This document shows, in pieces, positions 3,321-63,178 of a stretch of DNA of 64,000 nt (the stretch's first letter is position 1; each line of letters begins with the position of its first letter). Source of the stretch: Niabella agricola (lineage in GTDB: Bacteria; Bacteroidota; Bacteroidia; Chitinophagales; Chitinophagaceae); the NCBI RefSeq assembly GCF_021538615.1, contig NZ_JAJHIZ010000003.1, positions 2,542,001-2,606,000 of the forward strand, given 5' to 3'. Both the position numbers and the translations under genes were made by a program. The notes below the pieces were generated by a model. That model saw nothing but the letters and a program-made list of their open reading frames with translations. It had not been told where the DNA came from and did not search any database.

Positions 3321-3347
3321 TTCACATTCTCAAATTTCAAATTATCC
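3321..3347. repeat. heptanucleotide-periodic tract 1
   Basis: Units such as TTCTCAA and ATTTCAA follow each other at a 7-nt step between the transposase remnant and the convergent kinase gene. Confidence 0.5.
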
Positions 3348-3348
3348 G

Positions 3349-4404
3349 TCAATCCTTCTTCGCCGCCAGGGTAAACCCTATGGTAGTACCTACCCCCTCC
3401 GTGCTGCGGATGTGGATGGTTTGCTGATGGGCTTCAATAATGTGCTTGCAGATCGCCAGGCCTAACCCGCTGCCTGTAACATCCATACTGCGACCGGTTT
3501 CGGTACGGAAAAACCGTTCAAAGATCCGGGGCAGGCTTTTTTCAGCAATCCCAACCCCATCGTCGCTGATCTCCACCAAGATCCGCTTATCATCGGTTTT
3601 ATAGATTCCAGCCTTGATGCTGCCATTTATTTTTCCGTACTTAATCGCATTCTCCAGGAGGTTAATCACCACCTGCCGGATCTTTTCCTTGTCGGCATTC
3701 ACCATAATCGGCGCCTCACAGCCTTTTTTAATACTGAAATGGATGTTCTTCTGTTCTGCTTTTATCGAAATTCCTTCAAAGGAATCCTTCAACAGGTCCT
3801 GTATAATAAAATTCCGTTTTACAATAGTAATTTCCCCGCGCTCCAGGCTGGAGATCTCATCCAGGTCCTGCAACAGGTTGGTGAGCCGCTCCACATTCGT
3901 AGCTGTTTTTTCCAGGAATTTCCGGCTGATCACCGGGTCTACCATATCGCCGGCCAGAAGTGTTTCCACATAGCTTTGGATAGCAAACACGGGGGTTTTG
4001 AATTCATGGGAAAGATTTTGCAGGAATTCACGTCTGAACTCTTCATTGGCCTGAAGCGTGGCCACTTTCTGTTGATTTTCTTGTGCCCAGGTCTCCACAT
4101 CCACCGCTACTTCATCCAGGCTTTTTTTGGGAAGAATGTATTTGTAATAGGTTTCCTGCCGCCGGGTGGCCTTGGTTTGGTAAATGAACTTGTAAATAAC
4201 CTTGATCTTCCGGTAGATGAACCGTTCCAGCACAAAACTCACCAGCAGGAACCCGCCGATAAGCACCACGAAAAATGACGCTACGGCAGGCTGCCATTTT
4301 TGTTCAAATACATAATCGATCAGGCTGATGGGAGCTGCCAGACCCAATGCCGTGTAAAAAGATAATTTTCTTGGTGAAAGGTTCTTCGGGTCAAACATGC
4401 TCAA
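3349..4404 (-). CDS. sensor histidine kinase (PhoR/RprX-like)
   Basis: Inner-membrane kinase of 351 residues. Two membrane helices lie at about 14-32 and 40-60 with almost no periplasmic loop, so it probably senses within the membrane or through partners. A dimerisation/phosphoacceptor domain carries His133 in LSHEFKTP. The ATPase domain shows NLLENAIKYG (N box), DDGVGI (G1) and GSGLGLAICKHI (G2). It follows its response regulator by 32 nt on the same strand, so the pair form one transcription unit driven from 5132-5139. Confidence 0.93.
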   Translation of the reverse strand: MSMFDPKNLSPRKLSFYTALGLAAPISLIDYVFEQKWQPAVASFFVVLIGGFLLVSFVLERFIYRKIKVIYKFIYQTKATRRQETYYKYILPKKSLDEVAVDVETWAQENQQKVATLQANEEFRREFLQNLSHEFKTPVFAIQSYVETLLAGDMVDPVISRKFLEKTATNVERLTNLLQDLDEISSLERGEITIVKRNFIIQDLLKDSFEGISIKAEQKNIHFSIKKGCEAPIMVNADKEKIRQVVINLLENAIKYGKINGSIKAGIYKTDDKRILVEISDDGVGIAEKSLPRIFERFFRTETGRSMDVTGSGLGLAICKHIIEAHQQTIHIRSTEGVGTTIGFTLAAKKD

Positions 4405-4436
4405 TCCATTAAAATCATTCCGGAAATCGATATCGG

Positions 4437-5114
4437 CTACACTTCAAATTTGTAGCCCACCCCTTTTACCGTTGTAATGCAATCCAGCTCCAGCTTTTGC
4501 CGTATTTTCCGGATGTGCACATCAATGGTTCGGTCGCCCACGATTACATCATTGCCCCAGATCGCGTTCAGGATCTCGTTCCTCAAAAACACGCGGCCGG
4601 GCTTTAAGGCCAGCAGGTACAGCAATTCAAACTCTTTTTTTGCCAGGATGATCTCCTTGTCTCCATTCAGCACCACAAATTTCTCGGGATCGATGGTTAC
4701 CGGTCCTACCTTGATCACTTTATTATCTTCTTTATGAATGCGGCGCAAGAGCGCACTCACCCGGCTTAACAGCACTTTCGGGCTCACCGGTTTATTTACA
4801 TAATCATCCGCACCGGTTTCCAGTCCGCGGATCTGCGTAGATTCATCATTCAGTGCTGTAAGAAACATGATCAGAGTGTCTTTGAAAGCCGATTGGGCCC
4901 GCAACACCTGGCATACCTGCACACCGGTTTTCTTCGGCATCATCATATCCAGGATGATCAGATGTGGTTTCACCTTGTTTGCCAGGTCAATGGCCTCCTC
5001 GCCATCCTTGGCAGTGGTTACATCGTAGCCCTCTTTTATCAGGTTATAAGATAAAATGTCGAGGATGTCGGGTTCGTCATCCGCAACGAGAATTTTATAC
5101 CCTTTATTATCCAT
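4437..5114 (-). CDS. OmpR/PhoB-family response regulator
   Basis: DNA-binding partner of the adjacent kinase, 225 residues. The receiver domain (about 6-120) has the acidic pair DDE at 12-14, phosphoacceptor Asp56 in LIILDMMMP, and the conserved Lys in DDYVNKPVSP. The C-terminal winged helix (about 130-225) contains VGDRTIDVHIRKIRQKL. The order regulator then kinase is typical of RprY/RprX pairs in Bacteroidota. A -7 element lies 17 nt upstream. The target genes are not evident from the neighbours. Confidence 0.93.
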   Translation of the reverse strand: MDNKGYKILVADDEPDILDILSYNLIKEGYDVTTAKDGEEAIDLANKVKPHLIILDMMMPKKTGVQVCQVLRAQSAFKDTLIMFLTALNDESTQIRGLETGADDYVNKPVSPKVLLSRVSALLRRIHKEDNKVIKVGPVTIDPEKFVVLNGDKEIILAKKEFELLYLLALKPGRVFLRNEILNAIWGNDVIVGDRTIDVHIRKIRQKLELDCITTVKGVGYKFEV

Positions 5115-5131
5115 TTAACAGAAATTTAAAG

Positions 5132-5139
5132 CAAACCTA
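5132..5139 (-). promoter_or_regulatory. -7 element (TAGGTTTG) of the two-component operon
   Basis: Read on the minus strand it is an exact TAnnTTTG, 17 nt before the regulator's ATG. Confidence 0.5.
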
Positions 5140-5242
5140 ACCGTATTTTTTTGATATATGGCTTTTCCGCGAGCCGGTTACAGAGAGTTAATAATAAATT
5201 AATCTAATCATCATCATAAAATTACGTTGAAATCCGCCTGGT

Positions 5243-5274
5243 TTTGCCTGCCGGATATCATGGTATAAATTTTG
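5243..5274 (+). promoter_or_regulatory. candidate promoter, TTTG-N20-AAATTTTG
   Basis: A -33-like TTTG (5243-5246) stands 20 nt before AAATTTTG (5267-5274), a near match to TAnnTTTG. It lies 50 nt upstream of the first large paralogue. Confidence 0.35.
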
Positions 5275-5324
5275 CATGATTTTTAACCAAATATTCTTAC
5301 CCAGGCTATGTAACTTGTGACTTA

Positions 5325-7574
5325 ATGTATATGAAGAAGCTTTTACCGTTCCTTTTACTGCTGTTGTTATCGGTGCAGGCAGATGCACAAAGAAGATCCA
5401 AAAGAAAAAAAAAGCGGGAGCTGACCCCTGTTGAGGTGGTGGATACCGTTCCGGCCTATACGCCTGCCATGATCCGGTTAAAGCTTCATGAAACGGTAGA
5501 TGCCGACCAAAAAGCATTAATGGCCAGTGATGGTAAGGCGGACGCCCAACTGAACGTTTCTGCAGATGGACAGGTAAACGCCGCGGTGAGCGATGCGGCG
5601 ATGAAACGGGTAGACTGGCTGCAGTATGAAATAGAGACAGATCCAACTATGGATCAACGACTTAAAGCAAATTATCTTTCCGGCCTTTCGGAGATCCTCC
5701 GGTATATAAAAACCGGCTGGAGACGGGGTGAAGTAGATGCCGCCTACCTGCCGCAGATCATTGCCACCTATAAAAAATGTATTGAAGCCGACCGCAACAA
5801 ACGGTCCATAGCCCCCGTAATCGACCATCTTCCCTATGATGTTGCTTACACGGCCATTCTGCCGCGGGTTTTTAAGGACAATGTTGGCTATAAGGACACC
5901 CGGGATGTGCTCCTGCTGAAATTAAGCGAGCGGTATCCGCACAAAACCTTTGCCTCGCTGAGAACCAACCCCGAATCGCCCTATGCCGACAGTCTGATAC
6001 GGGTAATGGCGCATAAATACCCCCAGCAATTGTACGATTACGCCCAGGCCAATAATAAACTTAGCTATAAGATCCAGAATATTGAAGACGATGCGCTGAT
6101 CAAAAGCATTGTGGGTATGGCGCGAAGCGATAACAAAAGCGGGCAATTCTATTTTCCGTTCCTGGACCTCATCTCTTCTGAAAAACTGACCATCAGGGAT
6201 ATCGATGCTGTAAAAGATGATCCCGTAAAATATTTCCGTCTGTTGGTAAAAACCCAGATCGAATACTCCAGGCGGGCATCGGCAGGCGATACGGCCATCG
6301 GCTACCGCAGCCTTTTAAGTAAACTGGAACAAAAGGCCAAAGACGAATTTGTAGCCCCTATCAACGGGTTGCATGAACGGCCGGATGCCATCCGTTTCCG
6401 CGTCCTGCAACCGCTGAGCGCAGAAGAACTGTACTACGTGGCAGTACTTACCAACGGATTGATCTATACCAGCAGCTATACCAATGGTGTATATCCGCTG
6501 ATGATGCGGAAAGCCCGCAACAGAGGCGACGAATTGCTGAAAAACCTCAACTTTGATCATTATCGCAAATTTATCAGCCAGGCAGCCTCCTATAATACCC
6601 TCAAAAATTTCCTCAGCACATTCGCCGATAAAGAAGACACGAAAAAACTGATGACCTCCTTTGTGAGCAACCTGGAAAAAACAGAAGGACTGGAAGACGG
6701 AGTGGATGTGGCGGACTCGTACGCGAGCGTTTACGAAACCCTTCCGGACCTGGCCAGCCAAATGCTGAACGATGTAAAGGCAAACCTGGACCGTAACAAA
6801 CAGGCGGGCAACCAGAAAGGGGTAGCCATTTACAGTATCCTCAACAATCTTTTTCTTTCCGCGGACTCCTCCAATCATATTGATCTGACCAAGGAATTAC
6901 ACATTCCACCAGTGTATGATATCAGCTTTGGCTCGCTGGCAAACGAAAAAGGCGAAGTGATCAGCCAGGTATTCTTTTATGGCGACCAGGATGGGCGCAA
7001 TATTTTCAACGGCTTTCTGAATATGTTTAACCCCTCCAACTGGAAGATCGATCGCAGCAACAAGCAATGGGTAGTGATCAAATCCACCAAAGGCAACCCG
7101 GTTTCCATTTATGCCAACCGGCCGCTGGATGAAACAAAGGGCGAGGATGATAAAGCCCAGCGGGCATTGAATGCCTATCTGGAAGAGCATGAGCTTTTTC
7201 CTACGGTAACCATTCACCGGGGGCATAGTTACTACGCACCCACAACCATCGACTATATGTCGCCTACTTCAAAACTGGTTTTTATGGGCTCCTGCGGTGG
7301 TTTTAACCTCATCGACTCCATTTTAAGGAAATCGGAAGATGCCCATATCATCGCTTCCAAACAGATCGGAAAAACGGCCATCAACAAACCCTTCTTTTTA
7401 TTGTTAACAGAGAAGCTCCGTACAGGAAAGGATATCGAATGGATCCCCTTCTGGAAGGAATTTAAAGGCCGGGCTAATGTTCCGGGGTTTGAAGATTATA
7501 TCCCTCCTTATAAAAACCTGGGAGCCATTTTCATAAAAGCCTATAAAAAAGAAACCGGGGAAACCGATATCTGA
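5325..7574 (+). CDS. large secreted protein of unknown function, paralogue A
   Basis: 749 residues that I do not recognise as a named family. A signal peptide ends at about residue 22 (core LLPFLLLLLLS, then ADAQ) and is followed by a basic stretch RRSKRKKKRE. Residues 50-560 are probably mostly helical. The last 119 residues hold two short motifs after predicted beta strands, HRGHS (631-635) and FMGSCGGFN (C657). A His motif followed by a Gly-x-Cys-Gly motif recalls clan CD cysteine peptidases, but the spacing of 23 residues is short for that clan, so peptidase activity is only a hypothesis. The paralogue follows 101 nt downstream. A second ATG at 5331 would work equally well. Confidence 0.85.
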   Translation: MYMKKLLPFLLLLLLSVQADAQRRSKRKKKRELTPVEVVDTVPAYTPAMIRLKLHETVDADQKALMASDGKADAQLNVSADGQVNAAVSDAAMKRVDWLQYEIETDPTMDQRLKANYLSGLSEILRYIKTGWRRGEVDAAYLPQIIATYKKCIEADRNKRSIAPVIDHLPYDVAYTAILPRVFKDNVGYKDTRDVLLLKLSERYPHKTFASLRTNPESPYADSLIRVMAHKYPQQLYDYAQANNKLSYKIQNIEDDALIKSIVGMARSDNKSGQFYFPFLDLISSEKLTIRDIDAVKDDPVKYFRLLVKTQIEYSRRASAGDTAIGYRSLLSKLEQKAKDEFVAPINGLHERPDAIRFRVLQPLSAEELYYVAVLTNGLIYTSSYTNGVYPLMMRKARNRGDELLKNLNFDHYRKFISQAASYNTLKNFLSTFADKEDTKKLMTSFVSNLEKTEGLEDGVDVADSYASVYETLPDLASQMLNDVKANLDRNKQAGNQKGVAIYSILNNLFLSADSSNHIDLTKELHIPPVYDISFGSLANEKGEVISQVFFYGDQDGRNIFNGFLNMFNPSNWKIDRSNKQWVVIKSTKGNPVSIYANRPLDETKGEDDKAQRALNAYLEEHELFPTVTIHRGHSYYAPTTIDYMSPTSKLVFMGSCGGFNLIDSILRKSEDAHIIASKQIGKTAINKPFFLLLTEKLRTGKDIEWIPFWKEFKGRANVPGFEDYIPPYKNLGAIFIKAYKKETGETDI

Positions 7575-7636
7575 TTTTTTGCGTCTTGGTTTTGTTAAAA
7601 GATCAGCGTAAGCTCCCTTCCTGTACAAAAAGGGGG

Positions 7637-7644
7637 TAGTTTTG
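7637..7644 (+). promoter_or_regulatory. -7 element (TAGTTTTG) upstream of paralogue B
   Basis: Exact TAnnTTTG match 31 nt before the ATG at 7676. It suggests that the second copy can be transcribed independently of the first. Confidence 0.5.
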
Positions 7645-7675
7645 CGCATCGCATGAATTTTTAGTACGTTTTTTT

Positions 7676-9877: not shown

Positions 9878-9910
9878 GAGTTCGTACCGCTTTGGAACTG
9901 CTCCCTTTGG

Positions 9911-9952
9911 GAATGTAAAATAACCAATGCAAAATATTAAATGTAAAAATGG
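9911..9952. repeat. heptanucleotide-periodic tract 2
   Basis: Six 7-nt units including GAATGTA, CAATGCA and AAATGTA in the convergent gap 9878-10095. Nothing else is recognisable in that gap: no hairpin terminator and no coding frame. Confidence 0.5.
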
Positions 9953-10095
9953 AGATGCCGTTCCTGCTCAACGACCTATCTCATTTCTGTAAAAGATGGT
10001 ACGATCCGTGAATTGAGCAGCTTACTCCAGGCATAAACGGATCTAACCCGTCACGGCGGGCATGTCTGAAACTTTGAATGCTACCCTGAAACAAA

Positions 10096-10788: not shown

Positions 10789-10875
10789 ATCGTTTTCTTT
10801 TTAGAAGCATGAAAGATAGATAAGTTTGCGGGTCTTAAAAAAAAATTGTCTCCAGAATAATTATCTTGCAGGTTC

Positions 10876-12657: not shown

Positions 12658-12804
12658 TGCACGGCGTTCCGGTGATCTTACCATCTGATTGAACCTGCCT
12701 GTATTTCCCCGCTTAAAAAAAATTTCTAACCGAGGCAACCCGCCGCCGGAAATTACTGTATGTACTCATATATATAAACCATTTCGTAACCTTATTCATA
12801 GTGT

Positions 12805-15012: not shown

Positions 15013-15022
15013 ATACTTAAAA

Positions 15023-20228: not shown

Positions 20229-20270
20229 TTCTACATTTCACATTTCATATTCGTTATTCTACATTTAAGT
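20229..20270. repeat. heptanucleotide-periodic tract 4, abutting the atpH start
   Basis: Six 7-nt units (TTCTACA twice, TTTCACA, TTTCATA, TTCGTTA, TTTAAGT). The array ends one base before the atpH ATG at 20272, so it forms the whole translation-initiation region, which has no Shine-Dalgarno sequence. Confidence 0.65.
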
Positions 20271-32812: not shown

Positions 32813-32821
32813 TTGCCGCAC

Positions 32822-32874
32822 GGAGCCCTGGCCTCGGAAGTTTCAGGTTCAACGTTCCTGGTTGGCTCCTTTTA
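32822..32874 (+). terminator. possible terminator after the DUF3108 gene, containing a repeat tract
   Basis: GGAGCC (32822-32827) pairs with GGCTCC (32864-32869), followed by TTTTA. The long loop is mostly heptanucleotide tract 6. Confidence 0.45.
32839..32866. repeat. heptanucleotide-periodic tract 6
   Basis: Units AGTTTCA, GGTTCAA and CGTTCCT at a 7-nt step. Confidence 0.5.
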
Positions 32875-32891
32875 TTCAGAAGTTTATTTGG

Positions 32892-32926
32892 CCATTCACC
32901 ATTAACTATTCACCATTCCCCATCTT
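32892..32926. repeat. heptanucleotide-periodic tract 7
   Basis: Five 7-nt units (CCATTCA, CCATTAA, CTATTCA, CCATTCC types) in the convergent gap before the MBL gene. Confidence 0.6.
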
Positions 32927-32946
32927 TTATTTACCCTCAAAAAGCG

Positions 32947-33840
32947 CTAAAGGTCACTCAGCTTAAAAAACTGGTCCGGACGAATGCCCCGTTCTGTGTT
33001 CTTCAGCGTACAACATTCCAGTTTCGGGTCATGTTCAAAAAAAAGGATGTATTCCTTTTCCAGCGCCTCCCGTAAAAAGGCCTCTTTTTCGCTCATCGTT
33101 ATCAAAGGCCGGGTATCGTAAGCCATCACATAAGGCAGCGGAATATGGCCCGGAGAAGGCAGGAGGTCTGCCATAAACACAACCGTCTTTCCATTATACC
33201 GAACCTGGGGCAACATCATAGCATCTGTATGACCATGTGCGTATCGCACCAAAAAATCTTCCCCAAACAACACCTCGGGAAGCTTACGATCTATTACAAC
33301 GTGCCAGTCGGACTGGCCGTCATTTTTTGAAGACCAATGATCTACAAATTTTAATTGGCCGCTTTCCTTTATGGGCAGGATGTTCTCTGAAAGGAATGAA
33401 GCCTTTTCCCTCGGGTTGGGATGCGTCGCCCATTTCCAATGCGCCTCATTGCTCCAGTAAACGGCCTTCTTAAAAGCAGGCAGCAGTTTGTCACCCTCCT
33501 TTTTTATGGCGCCCCCACAATGATCAAAATGCAGGTGTGTTAAGAACACATCGGTAATATCATCCCGGTGAAACCCGTATTGCGCCAGCGATTTATCCAG
33601 GTTGTCATCCCCATGCAGGTAATAATACCCAAAGAATTTTTCGCTTTGTTTGTCACCCATTCCGCAATCTACTAAAATCAGACGTCCTTCCGTTTCGATC
33701 AGCAGACTGCGGGTGGCCCAACTGCACATATTATTCTCGTCTGCAGGGTTTAAACCATTCCAGATGCTCTTGGGTACCACACCATACATAGCACCCCCGT
33801 CTAATTTAAAATGACCGCAATTGATTGTGTAAAGGTTCAC
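32947..33840 (-). CDS. MBL-fold metallo-hydrolase
   Basis: 297 residues, cytoplasmic. The metal motif HLHFDHCGG lies at about 101-109 after VFLTH, with further ligands in ARYAHGHTDAM-like (YAHGHTDAM) and the late FFEHDP. This is the lactonase/AHL-lactonase-like branch by overall layout, but no specific substrate is supported. The start is GTG at 33840; repeat tract 8 begins at the very next base upstream. Confidence 0.88.
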   Translation of the reverse strand: MNLYTINCGHFKLDGGAMYGVVPKSIWNGLNPADENNMCSWATRSLLIETEGRLILVDCGMGDKQSEKFFGYYYLHGDDNLDKSLAQYGFHRDDITDVFLTHLHFDHCGGAIKKEGDKLLPAFKKAVYWSNEAHWKWATHPNPREKASFLSENILPIKESGQLKFVDHWSSKNDGQSDWHVVIDRKLPEVLFGEDFLVRYAHGHTDAMMLPQVRYNGKTVVFMADLLPSPGHIPLPYVMAYDTRPLITMSEKEAFLREALEKEYILFFEHDPKLECCTLKNTERGIRPDQFFKLSDL

Positions 33841-33889
33841 AGATTTCAGATTTGAGATTTGAGTAACCAGCGTTCAGTGCTCAGGTTAA
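33841..33889. repeat. heptanucleotide-periodic tract 8, abutting the MBL start codon
   Basis: Seven 7-nt units, each beginning AG (AGATTTC, AGATTTG twice, AGTAACC, AGCGTTC, AGTGCTC, AGGTTAA). Confidence 0.7.
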
Positions 33890-35253: not shown

Positions 35254-35323
35254 AGCTTTGAGATTTGAGAACACAGATTTGAGAATCCGGATTTGAGAGG
35301 TGAGAAGCGAGAAATCAGAAGCG
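35254..35323. repeat. heptanucleotide-periodic tract 9, ten units
   Basis: Exactly 70 nt of ten consecutive 7-nt units of type AGATTTG (AGCTTTG, AGAACAC, AGAATCC, GGATTTG, AGAAGCG and others). Confidence 0.75.
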
Positions 35324-39532: not shown

Positions 39533-39534
39533 CG

Positions 39535-39583
39535 GAGATTTGGGTTTTGAGATTTGAGACTTGAGATTTAGGATTTAGCATTT
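39535..39583. repeat. heptanucleotide-periodic tract 11
   Basis: Seven units (GAGATTT three times, GGGTTTT, GAGACTT, AGGATTT, AGCATTT) filling the whole 52-nt gap between hemF and the frameshifted gene. Confidence 0.7.
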
Positions 39584-39584
39584 A

Positions 39585-43586: not shown

Positions 43587-44303
43587 TTAAAAATCTTTGG
43601 ATCCCCGGGCCGACCGTCGGGTACTGTCGGCAATCATTCCGATCATCTGCTCCACATCGGGCTGTGCTGCTTCTACAATATTTGAGGTATATTTTTTCAA
43701 GGCCCTGGTTGTAGACGGGCCAATAGAAAATGCGCTCGTTTCCGGGCTGATCTTATTTAGTGAAAAAAAACTCTCCACGCCACTCGGGCTATAGAACAGG
43801 ATCCCGTCATAGTGCTGGTCAATGTGTACCGGTGTTTTTATAGTTTTATAAACCACTTTTTCCCGGCAGGAAATGGCGTTCTGTTTCAAACCGTCGGGAA
43901 TCGTATCCAGGCGCAGGTTTCCACAAAAAAAAACCACCGGGTCTGGTGCATGCCCGATAATCTGTTTTACCAGTTGTGCTCCGTTGGGTGCCGAAGCGCT
44001 GATTGTGGTGCCGGGCAATAATTCCTGCACTTTTTTACGGGTGGCCGCTTCAATACAGAACACCCTCCACCGGGGCTGGTTTGTAAGCGCTGCGGCTACT
44101 GCCGTTACGGCATTGGCACTGGTGAAAATAACCGCTTGATCCAAAAGCGGCACGTCGGCCAGCAGTGCTGTTACCTGTTCCGGTGCTACCGGTTGCGTTT
44201 GCAGAAAAGAGCGGCAATCGAGCTGTACCTGGTCCCCGGCCTTCCGGATGAGCGCATCATCCAATAGCTTTGTACTTAAAATATGAAGCAGTTTATTGCG
44301 CAT
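43587..44303 (-). CDS. hemD: uroporphyrinogen-III synthase
   Basis: Closes the linear tetrapyrrole made by HemC while inverting ring D. 238 residues, two-lobed fold. Sequence conservation in this family is weak; support comes from [12 protein letters not shown], the late [16 protein letters not shown] and [13 protein letters not shown] segments, and from its position overlapping hemC by 11 nt and followed by hemE. Confidence 0.88.
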
Positions 44304-45267
44304 GGTTCATTTTCGCAATTAACGGCCCTGCTCCTTTTTCCAAAATCTTCGCAGCGGCGGCTTTCCCGGCTGCGTTGGCTGCATCGATTGCATAGGTTTC
44401 ATCCATTTCTATTTTTTGCCAACCATCGGGTGTAACAATACTTCCTTTGAAATGCAGGTTGTTTTGATGAATGGTTGCCAGCGCGCTGATCGGTGTGGCA
44501 CAGCCCCCCATGAGCGCGCTTAAAAAATCTCTTTCGGCTTTTACACAATACGCCGTTTCTGCATGATTGATGCGGCTGCATGCACGCAGTACTGCTGTAT
44601 CTCCTTTCCGGGCGGTGATCATGATGGCACCCTGGGCGGGGGCGGGCAGCATCCAGTTAAGGCTGATGCTGTTGGCCGGTTTCAATCCAATACGATCCAG
44701 ACCTGCTTCGGCAAAAATGGCTCCGAACCAATTGCTTTCGGCAAGCTTGCGCAGCCGTGTATTTACGTTTCCACGGATATTTTCGATGGTATGACCCGGG
44801 AACCGGTGCAGCCATTGCGCTTTACGACGTACACTGCTGGTGGCGATAGTTAGGGGAAATGTTTCAGTTTCAACGTTTAAAGTTTCAAGACCTGAGATCT
44901 GAGATCTCAAATCTGAAATCTGAGATTTGTCATCCGGCGCCTGCCAGTTGGGATTTAAGACCAGGATATCGTTATAGGAGGCGCGTTCCAGAACAGCAGT
45001 TTCTACAATTCCTTCGGGCAATTGAACAGGCACATCTTTCATGCTGTGCACCGCCACATCAATCCGGTTATTCAGTAAAGCGGTGTCCAGTACTCTGGTA
45101 AAAACACCCTGAACCCCCATGGAATAAAGAGGGGTTACCTGGTCAAGGTCTCCTTCGCTTTTAACCAATTCCAACGCTGCGGGGGTGCCTAAATTTTCCA
45201 GGAGGTTTTTTACCTGGGTGGCCTGCCAAACGGCCAGCTGACTGTCTCGGGTGCCAATACGGATCAT
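44293..45267 (-). CDS. hemC: hydroxymethylbilane synthase with an extra repeat-encoded segment
   Basis: Polymerises four porphobilinogens to hydroxymethylbilane. 324 residues, about 15-20 above the usual length. Catalytic Asp78 is in VAVHSMKDVP, the phosphate-binding arginines in IATSSVRRKAQ (141-151) and the dipyrromethane-binding Cys in MGGCATPISAL. Residues about 113-136 (KSQISDLRSQISG and on) are not part of the family and are encoded exactly by heptanucleotide tract 12. The frame stays open through it. The insertion lies in a surface loop between domain strands before the ATSSVRR motif, so activity is probably kept. Confidence 0.94.
   Translation of the reverse strand: MIRIGTRDSQLAVWQATQVKNLLENLGTPAALELVKSEGDLDQVTPLYSMGVQGVFTRVLDTALLNNRIDVAVHSMKDVPVQLPEGIVETAVLERASYNDILVLNPNWQAPDDKSQISDLRSQISGLETLNVETETFPLTIATSSVRRKAQWLHRFPGHTIENIRGNVNTRLRKLAESNWFGAIFAEAGLDRIGLKPANSISLNWMLPAPAQGAIMITARKGDTAVLRACSRINHAETAYCVKAERDFLSALMGGCATPISALATIHQNNLHFKGSIVTPDGWQKIEMDETYAIDAANAAGKAAAAKILEKGAGPLIAKMNHAQ
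44860..44929. repeat. heptanucleotide-periodic tract 12, inside hemC
   Basis: Ten consecutive 7-nt units, 70 nt. Units of the GTTTCAA type are joined directly to units of the AGATCTG type, so two tract flavours meet here within coding sequence. Confidence 0.8.
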
Positions 45268-47928: not shown

Positions 47929-47938
47929 GGAAATGGAG

Positions 47939-48011
47939 GGTTGAGGTTTGAATTCAGATGTCAGACGTCAGAGGTCAGAAATACAACCACATCTCCACAT
48001 TTTCAAATTCC
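47939..48011. repeat. heptanucleotide-periodic tract 13
   Basis: 47939-47980 has six units (GGTTGAG, GTTTGAA, GTCAGAC, GTCAGAG, GTCAGAA types); after 10 nt three more follow at 47991-48011 (ATCTCCA, CATTTTC, AAATTCC). It fills the convergent gap after hemH. Confidence 0.65.
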
Positions 48012-48017
48012 CCTTTT

Positions 48018-52494: not shown

Positions 52495-52510
52495 GATCTT
52501 TTTTTGAAGG

Positions 52511-52811: not shown

Positions 52812-52850
52812 AAAAGAGGGTATTCCGGAATCCGGAACACCCTCTTTTTA
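52812..52850. terminator. bidirectional terminator between hemJ and the oxidase operon
   Basis: AAGAGGGT...ACCCTCTT with an inner TCCGGA/TCCGGA palindrome gives a long stem flanked by A on one side and T on the other, able to end both convergent units. Confidence 0.75.
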
Positions 52851-52865
52851 TGTAATGAGTTTTTG

Positions 52866-53360: not shown

Positions 53361-53362
53361 AA

Positions 53363-53397
53363 TTCTTTAAATTTCAAATATCAAATTCCAAATACAA
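53363..53397. repeat. heptanucleotide-periodic tract 16
   Basis: Units TTCTTTA, AATTTCA, AATATCA, AATTCCA and AATACAA directly upstream of the subunit IV start codon. Confidence 0.65.
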
Positions 53398-53437
53398 GTC
53401 TGTTTTATTTCCCCTCGCCCAGGAGCGGGTTGCGGTT

Positions 53438-54310: not shown

Positions 54311-54340
54311 ATTTGATTCGATCAATTTTGTAAAAGTTGT

Positions 54341-54916: not shown

Positions 54917-54950
54917 ATATAATTTCTTATCAATAACCGTCTGTCAAAAA

Positions 54951-55868
54951 TCAGGCTTTCGCCAGTAAAAGTGCCAGCAGTACTACCGGCAGATGAATAT
55001 AACTTCCAAACATCACCTTTCTTGCAGAAGGCACATCCATTTTATTATAAAGCGCAATGGCCCTTCCGATCAGAAAAAGATTGGCCACAATGATCAACAC
55101 CCCTCCAATCATTCCTTTCACCGTACTATATTCACAGATTCCCACAAAAAAAGGCGCAATGGTAATGGGCAGCATCAGCAGCGAATATACTACTGTTTGC
55201 AAGGCCGTAAACCGGGTTGGTCCTTTATCACTGGGCAGTAGCTTAAAACCAACACTGCTGTAATCCTTGTGCGCTACCCAGGCAATGGCCCAGAAATGGG
55301 GAAACTGCCAGAGGAACTGGATTCCGAACAACACGATCCCCCCCAACCAGTTGATCTGCTGACCCGGAACAAAGCCGGCCACCCAGCCGATCAAACAGGG
55401 AAAAGCCCCGGGGAAAGCGCCCACCAAAACAGCTACAGAGTTTACCTTTTTTAAAGGGGTATATACAAAGGCATAGAGGAAGAGGCTAAACGCCGCCAAT
55501 GCACCTGCCGTCCAGTTAAAATAATACCCCAAAATAAAGATACCTACCGCGCCACTGAAAATGGCAAATCCCCAGCCCTGTTCAGGCGTTAGCCGTCCGG
55601 CAGCAACCGGACGTTTTGCTGTCCTTTTCATTTGGGCATCTGTATCCCTTTCTACAACCTGGTTGATGGTGTTGGCACTACCTGTTACCAGCAATCCACC
55701 TACAAAGAGCAAAACGATCCTCCACCAATCATACATCACATCTGGCACCAGCAGGTAACTGATCACGCTGCTGAAAACCACCATTATACTTAATGAGGGC
55801 TTCATCAACTGGAGAAAATCCCTCACTCCACCCTCTTCTGCTTTTTTCAATTTTTTATATTTAGTCAA
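54951..55868 (-). CDS. ctaB: protohaem IX farnesyltransferase (haem O synthase)
   Basis: UbiA-type prenyltransferase that makes haem O for the oxidase. 305 residues, about nine membrane helices. The first Asp-rich motif is NTINQVVERDTDAQMKRT and the second region contains WAIAWVAHKDYSSVGFK. The start is TTG at 55868 unless translation begins at an internal GTG (GGVRDF). The TTG lies within repeat tract 17. It sits between subunits I and III and supplies their cofactor. Confidence 0.94.
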   Translation of the reverse strand: MTKYKKLKKAEEGGVRDFLQLMKPSLSIMVVFSSVISYLLVPDVMYDWWRIVLLFVGGLLVTGSANTINQVVERDTDAQMKRTAKRPVAAGRLTPEQGWGFAIFSGAVGIFILGYYFNWTAGALAAFSLFLYAFVYTPLKKVNSVAVLVGAFPGAFPCLIGWVAGFVPGQQINWLGGIVLFGIQFLWQFPHFWAIAWVAHKDYSSVGFKLLPSDKGPTRFTALQTVVYSLLMLPITIAPFFVGICEYSTVKGMIGGVLIIVANLFLIGRAIALYNKMDVPSARKVMFGSYIHLPVVLLALLLAKA

Positions 55869-55911
55869 TAGGCAATGGTCAATGGTATTTCCTATTGAAT
55901 CCTCACCATTC
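55863..55911. repeat. heptanucleotide-periodic tract 17, across the ctaB start
   Basis: Seven units (AGTCAAT, AGGCAAT, GGTCAAT, GGTATTT, CCTATTG types) covering the TTG start of ctaB and ending 4 nt from the ctaD stop. Confidence 0.6.
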
Positions 55912-55915
55912 CCTT

Positions 55916-57721: not shown

Positions 57722-57765
57722 AATTAACGTTTAAAAAACTGACCTATCTTTCTTTATCAAAAAAA

Positions 57766-58881: not shown

Positions 58882-58936
58882 ACGATGTTGTTCTAATATT
58901 TATTTCGACTACTATTTTTAAATTTCTGTTTCCCGA

Positions 58937-60175
58937 TTAAGTATGGTGAATCACTGCTTCTTTTACAAACGGATGGTTCCGTGCGGTTAAAGAATGTTTG
59001 CTTAAGGTTTTGCCGGTCACAAACATAATGATACCCACAAAACCCAGCCCGATTCCCATATCAAACAGGATCATTGGTACTTTATTGGGCGACACTGCAG
59101 GGAATACCATCTGGAAAAAGTCGAGCCAGTGCCCGAAGATCACAAGTACAGCCACAATTGTGACAATGGTATAATTTCTTTTAGAGTCCCGGCTCATGAA
59201 GATGAGAATCGGGGCTACAAAGTTGATAATCAGCATCATCCAGAAAATAGCGCTGTAAATACCTTCTGCTCTGGGTTTAAAGTATACGGTTTCCTCAGGA
59301 ATGTTTGCATACCAGATCAGCATGAACTGGGCAAACCACAAATAGGTCCAGAAAATGGAAAAGGCAAAAATGAACTTACCCAGATCGTGCAGGTGCTCTT
59401 TATTTACCAGGGGCAGGTAGCCATTGTTCTTTAGGAATACCACATACAGGGCGATGAGCGACATACCGGCTACAAAAGTGCTGGCAAAGTTATACCAGCT
59501 AAACATGGTGCTGTACCAGTGTGCATCAATACTCATAATCCACAGCCAGGGAACAGAAGACATAACGGTTAATGCAAATACCACGATGTACAGGGCTGCC
59601 ATTACGGTGTTGTTCCAAACAAATTTCTTTCTTTTCTCCAGCGTACTTACTATTTCTCCTTCATCAGTTTTTAAAGACATCTGGCGCATTTTCCAACCCA
59701 AGAATGACCATAATACAACAGTAAGAACAGTAACCGTTGCAAAAAAGCCCTTACTCAGGAAACCGCTTTTATGCTGTAAAACGGGGTCGTGAGCAACATG
59801 CTCCGCATCCGTCCAGTGATAAATGGTATGATGATCTCCAAAACACAACGCCAGTAAAATCACCATGGCAATTACGCCGATTACCGGTACACAGGAAGCA
59901 ATGGCTTCGGTAACACGGGTAAAAGCGATCTGCCATCCGCCCCAAGCCAGGGTGGTAGCACACATAAAGAACATAGCCGCATTTACTACCAGCAGGAAGT
60001 ATACGCTGTTCTGGAGCAAACTGGCCCAAAAGCGTGCACGATTATCGTGATCCCCCTCGCCTCCAGTTGTCACAAACAGGGAAATCGCTGCGATGACACC
60101 CACCACCATTAACGCGAACGCTATCGTGTTATATCTTTTTGCAGGTATGAATTTTTCCGTAGTTGACGTTGACAT
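58937..60175 (-). CDS. actF: alternative complex III subunit ActF
   Basis: 412 residues with about ten membrane helices, related to ActC/NrfD but without obvious cofactor ligands. Characteristic parts are KRYNTIAFALMVVGVIAAISL, WHWSTMFSWYNFAS-like (AHWYSTMFSWYNFASTF) and FWTYLWFAQFMLIWYANIPEE. It forms part of the membrane base of the quinol:cytochrome c oxidoreductase. Order and length fit the Bacteroidota act operon. Confidence 0.9.
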   Translation of the reverse strand: MSTSTTEKFIPAKRYNTIAFALMVVGVIAAISLFVTTGGEGDHDNRARFWASLLQNSVYFLLVVNAAMFFMCATTLAWGGWQIAFTRVTEAIASCVPVIGVIAMVILLALCFGDHHTIYHWTDAEHVAHDPVLQHKSGFLSKGFFATVTVLTVVLWSFLGWKMRQMSLKTDEGEIVSTLEKRKKFVWNNTVMAALYIVVFALTVMSSVPWLWIMSIDAHWYSTMFSWYNFASTFVAGMSLIALYVVFLKNNGYLPLVNKEHLHDLGKFIFAFSIFWTYLWFAQFMLIWYANIPEETVYFKPRAEGIYSAIFWMMLIINFVAPILIFMSRDSKRNYTIVTIVAVLVIFGHWLDFFQMVFPAVSPNKVPMILFDMGIGLGFVGIIMFVTGKTLSKHSLTARNHPFVKEAVIHHT

Positions 60176-60210
60176 TCGAATCTTATATTAATAGTTCTGT
60201 GAATTAGTTA

Positions 60211-60867
60211 TTATTTTTTTGCTGTTGCATCTGCCGCCACTGCTGCTCCGGCTGTTTTTGTGCTGTCAGCTGCGGCTCCTGAAGCAGCGGCACCTCCCCC
60301 CTGCTTAGACTTGATAAATGTGATAATCTCCCATCTTTGTTTAGGGCTCAGCTGAGAAGCGTAACTTCCCATCTGTCCTTTACCATAAGTAACGGAATAA
60401 AACATCGTACCGGCAGGAAGCGCCTTCATATCTGCAGCCATAAAATCCTTTGGCGCTGCGGTATAAGGTCCTTCACCACCATTGAAGAGGGGTCCGTTGC
60501 CATCCAGTTTTGCCCCATGGCAGATGCCGCAGTTTACCAGGTACAAGCGTTCCGCTTCCTTCATATCGATTTTAGTACCAGCAGAATCCAGGGGATTTTT
60601 CAGTTGCGCCGACTGCGCATATCCTATCGAATCATGCGGCAGGTTAAACGCAAACTCCGCATCCTCGCCTCTTGCCACCGTACCGGGCACCGGCTTGCGA
60701 TTGTAGAAAACACCTTCCTTTTCCAGATCGGCGGTGGAAGCATAGGTTTCATAGGCCCTGCTATAGGTCATGTCCGGCATGTATGAACGACCTGGGTTAC
60801 TATCCGCTCCGCAACCTGCCGCTATTGCGCTAAAAGCCACCGTTGCTATAAATATATATTTATTCAT
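60211..60867 (-). CDS. actE: alternative complex III subunit ActE, monohaem cytochrome c lipoprotein
   Basis: 218 residues from the ATG at 60867 (MNKYIFIATV). Lipobox AIAAGC. One haem c motif CGICHGAK at about 112-119 and a Met ligand in GQMGSYASQLSPKQRW. The tail is Ala/Lys-rich. It carries electrons from the ACIII core to the oxidase. The gap upstream to actD holds repeat tract 18. Confidence 0.92.
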   Translation of the reverse strand: MNKYIFIATVAFSAIAAGCGADSNPGRSYMPDMTYSRAYETYASTADLEKEGVFYNRKPVPGTVARGEDAEFAFNLPHDSIGYAQSAQLKNPLDSAGTKIDMKEAERLYLVNCGICHGAKLDGNGPLFNGGEGPYTAAPKDFMAADMKALPAGTMFYSVTYGKGQMGSYASQLSPKQRWEIITFIKSKQGGGAAASGAAADSTKTAGAAVAADATAKK

Positions 60868-60888
60868 GTTTCCTTTTATCAAAATTTG

Positions 60889-60951
60889 TTTGAGATTTGA
60901 GGTTTGAGGTTTGAGATCGGGACAACATCAAACCAAAAACATCAAACTATA
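60889..60951. repeat. heptanucleotide-periodic tract 18, nine units
   Basis: TTTGAGA, TTTGAGG, TTTGAGG, TTTGAGA, then TCGGGAC and units AACATCA, AACCAAA, AACATCA, AACTATA, all in one 7-nt phase, filling the actD-actE gap. Confidence 0.8.
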
Positions 60952-60956
60952 AATGC

Positions 60957-61544
60957 TTATACTGCAGCTACTTTTTTACCAAAACGAACTGTTTCCCGGT
61001 CGTAACGGCCAAACCACCATCCGGTTTCGCGGCTTTGCACCTGTACATCCTGTGCACCAGCCTCTTTCAGAAATGCGATCGCTTCCGCTTCGTTGGTTTT
61101 ATCGGTACATTCAACAGCCATTACAAACGTGTCATCCGTACTGCGCGGGTTAAAATGATCCTTTTTTACAAAAGGCGCCAACTGGCAAAGCCAGCAAAAA
61201 GTCAACACCATTCCAACTGCGGAGAACAACACCGTCAGCTCAAACATGATCGGAATCCAGGCCGGCAGCGAAAAGAAGGGTTTGCCTCCAAAATTGATCT
61301 GCCAGTCGCGCGCCAGCGCCCAGGTAATAAAGCTGATCGCGGTAGTGGTACCGGTAATACCATATATAAAACCGGCAATGTGCAGGTCCGTATCTTTCAT
61401 TCCCAGTTCCTTGTCTAAACCATGGATGGGGAAGGGCGTATACACATCATGTATCTTATAACCGGCGCGACGCACTTTCTTCACTGCAGGAAAAAGTACC
61501 GCTTCCTCGTAAAAATTGCCTGTAATAAACTTCTTGATGGCCAT
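60957..61544 (-). CDS. actD: alternative complex III subunit ActD (DUF3341)
   Basis: 195 residues with two membrane helices (about 57-77 and 97-121) as a hairpin. N-terminal domain KIHDVYTPFPIHGLDKELGM is typical of DUF3341; the C-terminal part ends with CTDKTNEAEAIAFLKEAGA. No cofactor sites. A peripheral-membrane stabilising subunit of ACIII. Confidence 0.93.
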   Translation of the reverse strand: MAIKKFITGNFYEEAVLFPAVKKVRRAGYKIHDVYTPFPIHGLDKELGMKDTDLHIAGFIYGITGTTTAISFITWALARDWQINFGGKPFFSLPAWIPIMFELTVLFSAVGMVLTFCWLCQLAPFVKKDHFNPRSTDDTFVMAVECTDKTNEAEAIAFLKEAGAQDVQVQSRETGWWFGRYDRETVRFGKKVAAV

Positions 61545-61556
61545 ATTTTCTATTTG

Positions 61557-61591
61557 TTTCAGGTTCCAGGTTTAACGCTTCATGTTTATCC
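61557..61591. repeat. heptanucleotide-periodic tract 19
   Basis: Units TTTCAGG, TTCCAGG, TTTAACG, CTTCATG, TTTATCC just upstream of the actD start. Confidence 0.6.
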
Positions 61592-61623
61592 CTCTTACCT
61601 TATTATTTTTTTTCAATTTTACT

Positions 61624-61672
61624 ACTTCAGGTTACAGATATCAACGTGAAACATTGAACGTGCAACCTGAAA
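61624..61672. repeat. heptanucleotide-periodic tract 20
   Basis: Seven units (ACTTCAG, GTTACAG, ATATCAA, CGTGAAA, CATTGAA, CGTGCAA, CCTGAAA) just downstream of the actC stop. With tract 19 it fills most of the actC-actD gap. Confidence 0.65.
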
Positions 61673-61678
61673 CTATTC

Positions 61679-63124
61679 CTAATGGTGTGCATTCGCATGT
61701 TCGAATGCTTCCAGCGATTCGTTCTCGTCTTTCTCCATCTGCTCTTTGAAATTGTCACCACTGCGTTTCAGGATATGCTTGATCTCCGCAATGGCAATAA
61801 CCGGGAAGAATTTAGAGAAGAGGAAGTAACAGGTAAAGAACAGTCCGAATGTACCCATATAGAACCCGATTTCCCAGATGGTAGGTGTATAGTATGTACT
61901 CCAGGAGCTGGGCAGGTAATCGCGGTAGATAGAGGTAACGATGATCACAAAACGCTCGAACCACATACCGATATTTACCAGGATACTCATAAAGAAGGTC
62001 ACCAGCAGGTTGCGGCGCATTTTCTTAAACCAGAAGATCTGCGGAGACAATACGTTACATCCCATCATCAGATAATAACTCCATCCGTAAGGACTGCTGA
62101 GGTTTACCCGATTTTCACGGAATGCGAACCACTCATACTCCACATGGCTGTACCATGCAATAAACAACTCTGTTAAATAGGCGATCCCCACAATCGATCC
62201 CGTCAATACAATTACCTTGTTCATTACATCGATGTGCTCCATGGTGATGTATTCTTCCAGCCCCAGTACCTTACGGGTAATGAGCAGCAGGGTTTGTACC
62301 ATTGCAAAACCGGAGAATACCGCACCCGCAACGAAATAGGGCGGAAAGATCGTGGTGTGCCATCCGGGAATTACCGATGTAGCAAAGTCGAACGATACGA
62401 TGGTGTGTACCGAAAGTACCAGGGGGGTACTTAAACCGGCTAATACGAGTGACAGTGCCTCATGACGCTGCCAGTGCTTGGTGCTTCCCGTCCATCCGAA
62501 AGAAGCCATACCATAAAATAATTTACGCCATTTTAATTTGGCCCGATCTCTTAATGTAGCCAGGTCAGGTAACAGACCGCAATACCAGAACAGGAGCGAA
62601 ACGGTAAAGTACGTAGAGATCGCAAATACGTCCCAAAGCAGTGGGGAGTTAAAGTTCACCCACAGCGGACCCCGGGTATTGGGGTAAGGCATTACGAAGA
62701 AGGCGTTCCATACACGGCCCATGTGCCAGATCGGAAACTGTCCTGCGCACATCACCGCAAAGATCGTCATGGCTTCCGCAGCACGGTTTACCCCGGTTCG
62801 CCATCCCTGGCGGAACAGTAAGAGGATCGCCGAGATCAGGGTTCCTGCGTGACCAATACCCACCCACCATACGAAGTTGGTGATATCCCAGCCCCAACCA
62901 ATGGTTTTATTCAGGTTCCACTGGCCGGTACCATACATCACCTCCATGGTAACGGAAACAATACCAAATATTAATAATCCGACGGAGATGATAAATCCCA
63001 CCCACCAAAGCTTACTTGGAGTGGCCTCCACAGGACGACATATATCTTCTGTAATCTGGTGATAGTCCTTGCTTCCTTCCACCAATGGTCCCCGTACTTG
63101 CGATTCGTATCTGTTTAGTGACAT
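61679..63124 (-). CDS. actC: alternative complex III subunit ActC (NrfD-like)
   Basis: 481 residues with about ten membrane helices in two bundles; contains the proposed quinol site. Recognisable parts are WWVGIGHAGTLISAILLLF, GQFPIWHMGRVWNAFF, VHTIVSFDFATSVIPGWH and MWFERFVIIVTSIYRDYLP. Polysulfide-reductase NrfD family. Length and order (actB-actC-actD) match Bacteroidota ACIII. Confidence 0.94.
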   Translation of the reverse strand: MSLNRYESQVRGPLVEGSKDYHQITEDICRPVEATPSKLWWVGFIISVGLLIFGIVSVTMEVMYGTGQWNLNKTIGWGWDITNFVWWVGIGHAGTLISAILLLFRQGWRTGVNRAAEAMTIFAVMCAGQFPIWHMGRVWNAFFVMPYPNTRGPLWVNFNSPLLWDVFAISTYFTVSLLFWYCGLLPDLATLRDRAKLKWRKLFYGMASFGWTGSTKHWQRHEALSLVLAGLSTPLVLSVHTIVSFDFATSVIPGWHTTIFPPYFVAGAVFSGFAMVQTLLLITRKVLGLEEYITMEHIDVMNKVIVLTGSIVGIAYLTELFIAWYSHVEYEWFAFRENRVNLSSPYGWSYYLMMGCNVLSPQIFWFKKMRRNLLVTFFMSILVNIGMWFERFVIIVTSIYRDYLPSSWSTYYTPTIWEIGFYMGTFGLFFTCYFLFSKFFPVIAIAEIKHILKRSGDNFKEQMEKDENESLEAFEHANAHH

Positions 63125-63136
63125 ACTTTTATTTTG

Positions 63137-63178
63137 TTTGAGGTTTAAAGTTTAAAGCCTGAAATTGCTCGCTCTAAA
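63137..63178. repeat. heptanucleotide-periodic tract 21
   Basis: Units TTTGAGG, TTTAAAG twice, CCTGAAA, TTGCTCG, CTCTAAA between actB and actC. Confidence 0.65.

Follow-up and report, generated by a model that had tools for sequence, protein, structure and literature searches.

In many prokaryotes, heptamers are reported to be the most frequent tandem repeats between genes, and their function is unknown (SPADE, PMC6344855). Neutral slippage with a 7-nt bias has been suggested as their source (Mrazek 2007, as cited in PMC4679880 and PMC4692102). In the passages of PMC4692102 used here, the GGGAATC-type (GGGANTN) heptamers of Xanthomonas and the GGGGA(C/T)T heptamers of Nostoc are portrayed as degenerate and mostly non-coding, lying mostly between the same gene pairs in two related species, where their length and sequence vary, and including some inverted pairs. 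TAACTGA occurs as intergenic heptamer direct repeats in Beggiatoaceae, cyanobacteria and five Bacteroidetes, with other heptamers nearby (MacGregor 2015, PMC4679880), which contradicts the statement of the initial annotation that no counterpart had been described in Bacteroidota.

We analyzed a 64-kb stretch of Niabella agricola DNA (the window) together with related Chitinophagaceae, and found short tracts repeating with a 7-nt step. As far as the cited passages go, these tracts share with the SPADE and Mrazek heptamers a 7-nt tandem period, a mainly intergenic location and an unknown function, but they are strongly degenerate, have period 8 as a second mode in some genomes, use different words in different species at one gap and often have inverted arms. 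The Xanthomonas and Nostoc heptamers resemble them in being degenerate, mostly non-coding, variable at the same gaps and sometimes inverted; however, those words are described as G-rich and quadruplex-forming (PMC4692102), whereas the Niabella tracts comprise many words without G-runs. TAACTGA repeats are likewise intergenic heptamers found in Bacteroidetes, but they consist of one word, placed in the main genome described mostly just before start codons (PMC4679880), whereas the Chitinophagaceae tracts are made of many drifting words and reach their highest density in convergent gaps in five of the six sets sampled. REP elements are also dispersed palindromes, and their dimers have variable spacers (PMC3733652), but the passages used describe no 7-nt step, and no Y1 transposase link was found for the Chitinophagaceae tracts. 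The open-licence literature searched yielded no prior account of period-7 tracts with drifting units in Chitinophagaceae.

Cyanobacterial STRR sequences consist of exact or near-exact heptamer copies, unlike the Chitinophagaceae tracts: in Longitalea and Niastella, the mean identity between a unit and the next is 0.787, and the period-7 rows with at least three copies reported by Tandem Repeats Finder in the window have 78–93% matches. Rickettsia palindromic elements are small palindromic repeats that also occur in frame inside protein-coding genes; to our knowledge, they are not built of heptamers.

Period-7 tracts in the Niabella agricola window

We delimited 51 gaps (4,967 bp) as the intergenic set of the window. 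Self-matching at lag 7 in these gaps was 0.322, compared with 0.268 in dinucleotide shuffles (z = 8.8), with echoes at lag 14 (z = 5.0; 0/300 shuffles) and lag 21 (z = 2.7; 1/300). Lag 6 was also in excess (z = 4.7; 0/300), which had not been predicted. Outside the gaps, lag 7 (0.2475) was like lags 5, 8, 10 and 11 (0.2448–0.2466). The period-7 excess claimed for intergenic DNA was thus recovered, and it withstood the dinucleotide shuffle named as its refutation, with none of 300 shuffles reaching it. The other refutation named, an equal excess in any A/T-rich spacer DNA, found no support in 14 loci without primary tracts (28.9 kb), where residual lag-7 excess was absent (z = −0.8), but these loci were chosen for lacking tracts.

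Scanning the entire window for segments with a score of at least 11 gave nine at lag 7, six at lag 14 and zero or one at each remaining lag from 4 to 21. At a score of at least 9 the scan gave 11 tracts rather than the 21 or more counted initially, although weaker tracts are visible by eye. The longest spans 61 nt (44869–44929), in disagreement with the initial description of two tracts as exactly 70 nt. The tracts, and one inverted pair that falls below the tract threshold because its lag-7 score is only 7.8, are as follows (no strand is assigned to any of them):

20233..20259, ACATTTC/ATATTCG period-7 tract in a co-directional gap, between the genes for F0F1 ATP synthase subunits B and delta
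32892..32923, CCATTCA/CCATTAA/CTATTCA period-7 tract in a convergent gap
33840..33863, CAGATTT/GAGATTT period-7 tract in a co-directional gap
35294..35320, degenerate TGAGAGG TGAGAAG tract, score 9.0, preceded by AGATTTGAG words from 35275
39539..39584, TTTGAGA period-7 tract, score 23.6, with 6.6 units in the gap separating the coproporphyrinogen oxidase gene from the next ORF
44869..44929, period-7 tract within the hemC frame (hemC = 44293–45267, minus strand), score 23.2
47936..47979, GAGGTTT then GTCAGAN period-7 tract in the convergent gap after hemH
53366..53393, TTCAAAT/ATCAAAT period-7 tract in the gap adjoining a cytochrome oxidase subunit III-like gene
55844..55886, TCAATAG/GCAATGG/TCAATGG period-7 tract, score 11.8, straddling the heme o synthase ORF at its start-side edge and the adjoining gap
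60883..60956, two arms, (TTTGAGR)4 at 60889–60915 and an inverted partner with CATCAAAC twice
61545..61678, inverted pair with GTTYCAN-like arms forming a long hairpin (MFE −33 kcal/mol, z = −6.9)
63136..63157, GTTTGAG/GTTTAAA period-7 tract, score 10.6

As initially described, both orientations are represented; the tracts lie in co-directional gaps within the atp, hem and cox regions, and two convergent gaps also hold them (32813–32946 and 47929–48017). Their reported near absence from coding sequence holds in that 9 of the 11 lie in gaps, with another across an ORF edge, but one of the two top-scoring tracts is inside the hemC frame (1/11). None of the 11 has a GGG run at a fixed unit position, which sets them apart from G-quadruplex heptamers. 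Of 12 window stretches that were folded to look for a stable hairpin of the intrinsic terminator kind, one was strong (the hairpin listed above), three were near z = −2 and eight were neither.

The window is atypical of the N. agricola genome, and lag 7 elsewhere is weak. A 400-kb sample of the genome held 12 lag-7 segments at a score of at least 11, compared with nine in the 64-kb window. Lag 21 gave 14 segments in this sample and lags 14, 15, 8 and 9 gave 7, 6, 5 and 5, such that lag 7 is not above lag 21 and is moderately above the others.

Step, placement and turnover among relatives

Some of the Chitinophagaceae stretches are densely populated with degenerate period-7 tracts, and others have none. 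Across 397 kb of Longitalea and Niastella, there were 96 primary tracts at period 7, 63 at period 8, and at most three at each of periods 5, 6 and 9–13. Period 7 exceeded period 8 in six of eight further genomes, with counts of 5 versus 8 in another and negligible period 7 in the last. At hemC, primary period-7 tracts were present in 6 of 20 genomes (one 20-kb stretch each). In Longitalea and Niastella, a tract was present in 27 of 39 gaps between convergent genes, 57 of 153 between co-directional genes and 12 of 39 between divergent genes, and 22 of 311 tracts lay within ORFs when six sets were summed using crude ORF calls.

Unit identity in Longitalea and Niastella was 0.787 between adjacent units (80 tracts) and fell to 0.638 at a distance of six units (53 tracts), compared with 0.725 and 0.687 when unit order was shuffled; the adjacent-unit value is inflated because tract detection favors similar neighbors. 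Since neighboring units are more alike than distant ones and period 8 forms a second step, a generating process is plausible; of the two agents initially proposed to act on the phase, selection or a generating process, these results bear on the second.

Sister species held a tract at score 11 in 11 of 25 gaps, the remaining 14 scoring below. The idea that the unit drifts while the period is kept was borne out at several sites: orthologous gaps and one HemC loop carry period-7 tracts with different words in different species. The HemC tract lies within an insertion of ~22 residues relative to HemC of PDB 1ypn, and other period-7 tracts occupy the loop in some other species. Comparison of sisters revealed word turnover at gaps 60883–60956, 58882–58936 and 39533–39584; two tract-free gaps of the same region are 89–100% identical between sisters. 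At 60883..60956, N. pedocola and BIN29 carry an (AACYATT)n tract instead. The gap at 39539..39584 is 52, 74 and 45 nt long in N. agricola, N. pedocola and BIN29, with a tract in all three (two species lacked an anchor in this comparison). At 35294..35320, the N. pedocola gap scores 19.2 and the unscored BIN29 gap is alike by eye, and lag-7 scores at 61545..61678 reach 20.4 in N. pedocola and 17.4 in N. aurantiaca. A tract similar to 53366..53393 is found in N. pedocola and BIN29 (13.0 each), with low scores in N. drilacis (7) and N. aurantiaca (5.6). The sister gaps at 55844..55886 resemble it in sequence but score only 5.8–10, and the site at 63136..63157 is 89–92% identical in three sisters but differs in N. 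aurantiaca (53% identical, score 9.8). At 47936..47979, no tract was scored in BIN29 or N. drilacis, and the N. pedocola gap is just 22 nt.

Words, inverted arms and the origin of the tracts

Our leading explanation, held tentatively, is that the tracts are satellite-like arrays produced by serial 7-nt (in some genomes 8-nt) tandem duplication combined with exchange or re-seeding between sites, and that they are tolerated rather than useful. It starts from what we observed directly, namely the step, the patchy presence, the similarity of neighbors, the turnover at the same sites and the recurrence of words within and between genomes. Repeated tandem duplication in 7-nt steps, and in some genomes also 8-nt steps, would build the arrays, presumably through slippage. 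Exchange or re-seeding between sites would renew tracts and spread words. Tracts would persist where harm is small, as in gaps of the convergent and co-directional types and, in one case, in a HemC loop that tolerates them, and most copies would be functionless. Inverted arm pairs, strong in some genomes, may have been co-opted as terminator-like hairpins.

Word sharing among genomes is real but modest. A common 9-mer was found in 1307 of 11,689 tract pairs within a genome and 2453 of 42,005 pairs between genomes. N. agricola and three other genomes (G028, G009 and G109) had more words in common with another genome than within their own. The exchange step is weakened because sharing peaked within the own genome for only five of nine genomes; this result and the weak lag 7 in the N. 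agricola sample lowered our confidence in the leading explanation and raised it for plain slippage. The 14 of 25 sister gaps that score below 11 also count against the leading explanation.

Universal words were considered and rejected, with GGTSAAT in 10/296 genomes of the phylum versus 3/296 for the reversed control and TTTGAGN in 18/147 genomes of the family versus 7/147 for its control. AGATTTG showed an apparent strand bias by replichore.

It is also conceivable, if somewhat unlikely, that the tracts are selected binding-site arrays. A nucleoid protein, terminator or mRNA-end factor would bind DNA or RNA at T-S-A-centered words spaced 7 or 8 nt apart, and the word would co-evolve with the protein of each lineage. 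Among 24 columns in which C and G alternated within units between fixed neighbors, 18 had the T-S-A context, across 12 genomes (null 13.9%; reached by 0 of 1000 column shuffles), without a like bias in substitutions between Niabella species: a genome-wide T[C/G]A mutational bias was rejected on C/G changes in T_A of 24/253, 27/283, 20/268 and 13/128, against a background of ~7%. New-word tracts at the same gap or loop are consistent with a binder, as are the arm units of genome G096, which are position-specific across 23 aligned rows (22 distinct copies, picked by likeness to one arm) while the loops differ. A binder accords poorly, however, with the presence of several unrelated words in each genome, with the tract in the hemC coding sequence, and with 14 of 20 relatives having no tract in the sampled stretch. 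Nor was there a motif beyond T-S-A, and T-N-A itself was only 1.2-fold enriched after family collapse. Provision of stop codons in every frame was rejected separately: T-N-A is weak, and transitions keeping a stop are not clearly enriched (R 7/41, reached by 187 of 1000 shuffles; Y 8/35, reached by 18 of 1000).

An origin in neutral slippage alone, biased to 7 nt by a polymerase footprint and without exchange between sites, is unlikely. Heptamers are over-represented in many prokaryotes according to the cited passages (PMC4679880, PMC4692102), and both the similarity of neighboring units and a within-genome word sharing just ~2 times that between genomes agree with it. However, the loci picked for lacking tracts had no residual lag-7 excess, and plain slippage leaves unexplained the finding that sister species have unrelated period-7 words in one and the same gap, the confinement of C/G alternation to T-S-A and the words recurring between genera. 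A distinctly unlikely possibility is a lineage-restricted trans-acting system that writes and rewrites repeats of 7 and 8 nt, centered on a strand-symmetric T-S-A core, at particular sites, using words that recur both within a genome and among related ones, whereby orthologous gaps and the HemC loop would get different words with the same step.

We consider it very unlikely that the tracts are small MITE- or REPIN-like palindromes moved by a transposase that recognizes the heptamer arms as ends. Nearby tract pairs were indeed inverted (61 of 132) more than direct (26) or neither (45), versus 264, 261 and 1575 of 2100 random pairs. One query each from G096 and G055 matched 78 and 99 places in their own genomes in both orientations, the query counted; the genus search for close strains returned one genome each, the query's own. 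In Niastella and Longitalea, a two-armed tract also adjoins a gene for a Y1 transposase. Yet neighboring tracts in G055 were direct in 8 and inverted in 3 of 21 cases, and loops differ among 20 G096 copies, in place of the conserved whole interior of a MITE. The GTAG or CGTC tag expected at one end of REP/REPIN elements was absent from the conserved columns of the G096 arms (23 aligned rows). Only 6 of 30 Y1 loci had a tract inside the fetched flanks, and a Y1/RAYT transposase was rejected as driver, with tracts in 3/10 Y1 group B-positive versus 3/10 negative genomes (p = 1.0; one 20-kb stretch each). The Y1 tree covered 8 of 16 rows, those with an ORF found by script, and its G001 row is uninformative because its ORF is apparently on the wrong strand.

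Telomerase-like addition, with a reverse transcriptase or similar writing repeats from a short RNA, would suit a constant step that takes either of two values, 7 or 8, but is highly implausible given that the array-bearing N. agricola genome (99.98% completeness) has no RVT_1 match and that reverse transcriptases occur in 6/15 array-bearing and 8/14 array-free genomes, a link we rejected. A Y-family polymerase was present in 29/29 genomes and showed no association. No array-linked gene was found among the candidates examined (Y1 transposase, reverse transcriptase and Y-family polymerase).

Meaning for Chitinophagaceae

The Niabella tracts are real and occur also in some relatives, and their step is often kept while the letters change. 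New here are dense degenerate tracts with period 8 in second place, word turnover, alternation at T-S-A and inverted neighbors. The origin of the seven-nucleotide step is testable in Chitinophagaceae, where tract-rich relatives stand beside tract-free ones, orthologous gaps may or may not hold a tract, and the coding case in hemC and the T-S-A signature are available.

Period-7 signal in the window and its genome

The window (G000:C3:2542001-2606000) lies in a 6.26 Mb genome, and we delimited 51 intergenic gaps in it, totaling 4,967 bp. Bases seven positions apart matched at a rate of 0.322 in these gaps versus 0.268 after dinucleotide shuffling (z = 8.8; none of 300 shuffles reached it), with echoes at lags 14 (z = 5.0) and 21 (z = 2.7). 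This bears out the initial annotation, which had proposed a 7-nt step between genes. Lag 6 likewise exceeded the shuffles (z = 4.7), which had not been predicted. Scanning the whole window for segments scoring at least 11 returned nine at lag 7, six at lag 14, and none or one at each remaining lag from 4 to 21. The number of tracts was not confirmed: a scan at score 9 listed 11, compared with the proposed 21 or more.

The window is untypical of its genome. In a 400 kb sample of the Niabella agricola genome, segments scoring at least 11 numbered 12 at lag 7, 14 at lag 21, seven at lag 14, six at lag 15, and five each at lags 8 and 9. Primary tracts at score 13 comprised five of period 7, six of period 21, four of period 15, and three of period 8. 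Because lag 7 hardly exceeds other lags in this sample, the genome beyond the window is a weak case. The pattern AGATTTGAGATTTG had 23 matches in this genome, some overlapping, and its orientation along contig G000:C3 looks strand-biased, being all forward up to 2.6 Mb, all reverse at 3.6-4.0 Mb, and mixed thereafter.

Turnover among Niabella species and a tract inside hemC

We compared orthologous gaps across five Niabella species, scoring those with anchors and lengths of 26-399 nt. At 60883-60956, N. agricola has (TTTGAGR)n, and the tract found in both N. pedocola and BIN29 is (AACYATT)n (identity to N. agricola 0.55 and 0.62; lag-7 scores 14.6 and 19.4); N. aurantiaca is near the N. agricola form (identity 0.80) with a score of only 7.8 and N. 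drilacis scores 8.0. The tract at 58882-58936 is absent from N. agricola, N. pedocola, and BIN29, and scores 12.0 in N. drilacis and 18.2 in N. aurantiaca. At 39533-39584, the three anchored species have lengths of 52, 74, and 45 nt with a tract in each. Scores at 61545-61678 were 20.4 in N. pedocola, 17.4 in N. aurantiaca, 7.8 in N. agricola, 9.4 in BIN29, and 10.0 in N. drilacis. At 63125-63213, identity is 89-92% for three sisters and only 53% for N. aurantiaca; at 53361-53437 the tract is kept in N. pedocola and BIN29, with low scores in N. drilacis and N. aurantiaca; and 55830-55915 scored 11.8 in N. agricola and 5.8-10 in its four sisters. No tract was found at 47929-48017 in BIN29 or N. 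drilacis, and the N. pedocola gap is 22 nt.

The claim that the step is kept while the words change thus applies at some sister gaps but not always: for the eight gaps where N. agricola has a tract or arms, 11 of 25 scored sister gaps reached 11. Two tract-free gaps in the same region are 89-100% identical across all five species, and tracts therefore turn over much faster than neighboring spacers. At 60176-60210 in the cox/act region, a gap of 35 nt is 97-100% identical in the five species, far above its tract-bearing neighbors, and could represent a conserved leader or a control site.

One tract lies within a gene:
44869-44929: tract inside hemC, the longest in the window, with the second-highest score (23.2; best 23.6)

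This hemC matches TIGR00212 above the cut-off, its nearest relative among the matches listed is from N. pedocola (90%), and its frame is without stops and open through the tract. Alignment to the hydroxymethylbilane synthase of E. coli (PDB 1ypn) places the tract in a stretch of about 22 inserted residues that precedes the TSS-R-R motif. With a score of at least 11 at lag 7 or lag 8 as the criterion, the loop held a tract in 8 of 13 same-genus genomes (N. agricola, L025-L035, and L248; 13 out of 17 genomes) and, outside that set, in 5 of 32 loci (L042-L058 and L238-L257 minus L248, with four further loci dropped where the motif was unmatched), always of period 7; L036-L041 duplicate genomes already counted, and some genomes may appear twice. 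Words in the loop vary, with AAATCTC, TTTCAGA, AACCTGA, and AACGTSA in Niabella and CCATTSA types in Niastella, Longitalea, and Lacibacter. A pattern of three CCATTSA units, 19 bases long, had 86 matches in Niastella (reversed control 1), 288 in Longitalea (reversed control 8), and only 3 in Lacibacter.

Composition and arrangement of tracts

Among 331 tracts, collapsed by genome and pattern, 18 of 24 C/G-alternating columns with fixed neighbors stood between T and A (T-S-A), in 12 genomes; column shuffling gave 13.9% and reached the observed value in 0 of 1000 trials. The other five alternation kinds together stood there in 20 of 133 cases, near their nulls except for C/T, where 18 of 1000 shuffles reached the observed 8 of 35. 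Six of the 18 columns are CCATTSA forms, a word used to choose some stretches, and the remaining 12 represent roughly ten distinct words by a hand count. C/G substitutions between Niabella species had no comparable T_A bias (7.5-10% versus a background of ~7%). The signature would fit a strand-symmetric recognition or writing step. That the tracts are selected binding arrays is the best placed of four rival explanations, although we consider it unlikely.

Neighboring units were 0.787 identical (80 tracts with at least five units) and units six apart 0.638 (53 tracts), compared with 0.725 and 0.687 when unit order was shuffled. Plain slippage ranks next among the rivals and is also doubtful. 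A 9-mer was shared by 1307 of 11,689 tract pairs within genomes and 2453 of 42,005 between genomes. Sharing within genomes was highest for Longitalea, Niastella, and three further sampled genomes (G096, G021, G055). N. agricola, G028, G009, and G109 shared more with some other genome than within, and therefore the vocabulary is only partly genome-specific.

A single query in G096 gave 78 matches, and the 20 best matches retrieved have four-unit arms in common and unlike loops. An alignment of such copies has 23 rows, with one copy entered twice; arm likeness is partly due to selection by likeness. Of 132 neighboring tract pairs within 250 bp in seven sampled sets, 61 were inverted, 26 direct, and 45 neither, versus 264, 261, and 1575 of 2100 random pairs; G055 reverses this trend (3 inverted and 8 direct of 21). 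Folding of 12 window stretches gave one strong result and three near z = -2, and 61545-61678 gave z of -2.1, -1.6, -1.4, and -5.1 in four sisters. A hairpin is no general rule for tracts, and we regard a mobile palindrome as improbable. Templated addition is very improbable.

Distribution, placement, and origin

Longitalea and Niastella yielded 96 primary tracts of period 7 and 63 of period 8 in 397 kb, with at most three each at periods 5, 6, and 9-13. Period-7 and period-8 counts in eight further genomes were 36/1 (G055), 19/5 (G096), 10/1 (G028), 21/0 (G021), 3/0 (G183), 6/4 (G009), 5/8 (G109), and 1/0 (G037); all these stretches were partly chosen around word matches, such that densities are not genome averages. 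With one 20 kb stretch at hemC per genome, 6 of 20 genomes had primary period-7 tracts. No residual lag-7 excess was found in 28.9 kb of non-coding DNA from the other 14 (z = -0.8) or in 37 loci, flavobacterial ones among them, that have no lag-7 segments (z = -2.0), using 60 draws of first-order resampling on sets selected for lacking tracts. Hence, no weaker period-7 background underlies tract-free loci, and tracts elsewhere in those genomes are possible. Recurring period-8 AAATCTCR arrays with short spacers occur in Longitalea (L139, 14333-14605), the last three recurring every 60 nt, and Flavobacterium and Polaribacter loci (L091, L070, L080) carry period-7 or period-14 arrays of quite different words.

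By crude ORF calls, Longitalea and Niastella had a tract in 27 of the 39 gaps between convergent genes, in 57 of the 153 co-directional gaps, and in 12 of the 39 divergent ones. Per kb of gap, convergent gaps carried the most tract bases in five of six sets; in the sixth, the N. agricola sample with its 8 tracts, the values were 9 for co-directional, 8 for convergent, and 0 for divergent gaps. This placement fits tolerated DNA and also a 3'-end role. As candidate drivers, we rejected Y1 transposase and reverse transcriptase, whose presence does not track arrays (N. agricola has no reverse transcriptase), and Y-family polymerase, which is present in 29 of 29 genomes searched and does not track them. 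A Y1 transposase gene adjoins a CCATTSA-type two-armed tract at 1340-1461 of L215 and L217 (Niastella, Longitalea), which looks like one locus common to both.

The initial annotation knew of no counterpart in Bacteroidota, yet heptamer repeats are reported for five Bacteroidetes (PMC4679880). Degenerate heptamers in Xanthomonas, mostly between the same genes, varied in sequence, and some inverted, are described in PMC4692102. Repeats of this kind are thus known. In the open-licence literature that we searched, neither the T-S-A signature nor a drifting form with 8 as a second step was described. Serial duplication, plus exchange or re-seeding between sites, would make such tracts, and we tentatively favor it over all four rivals. 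The tracts are a real feature, a variant of known, unexplained heptamer repeats.
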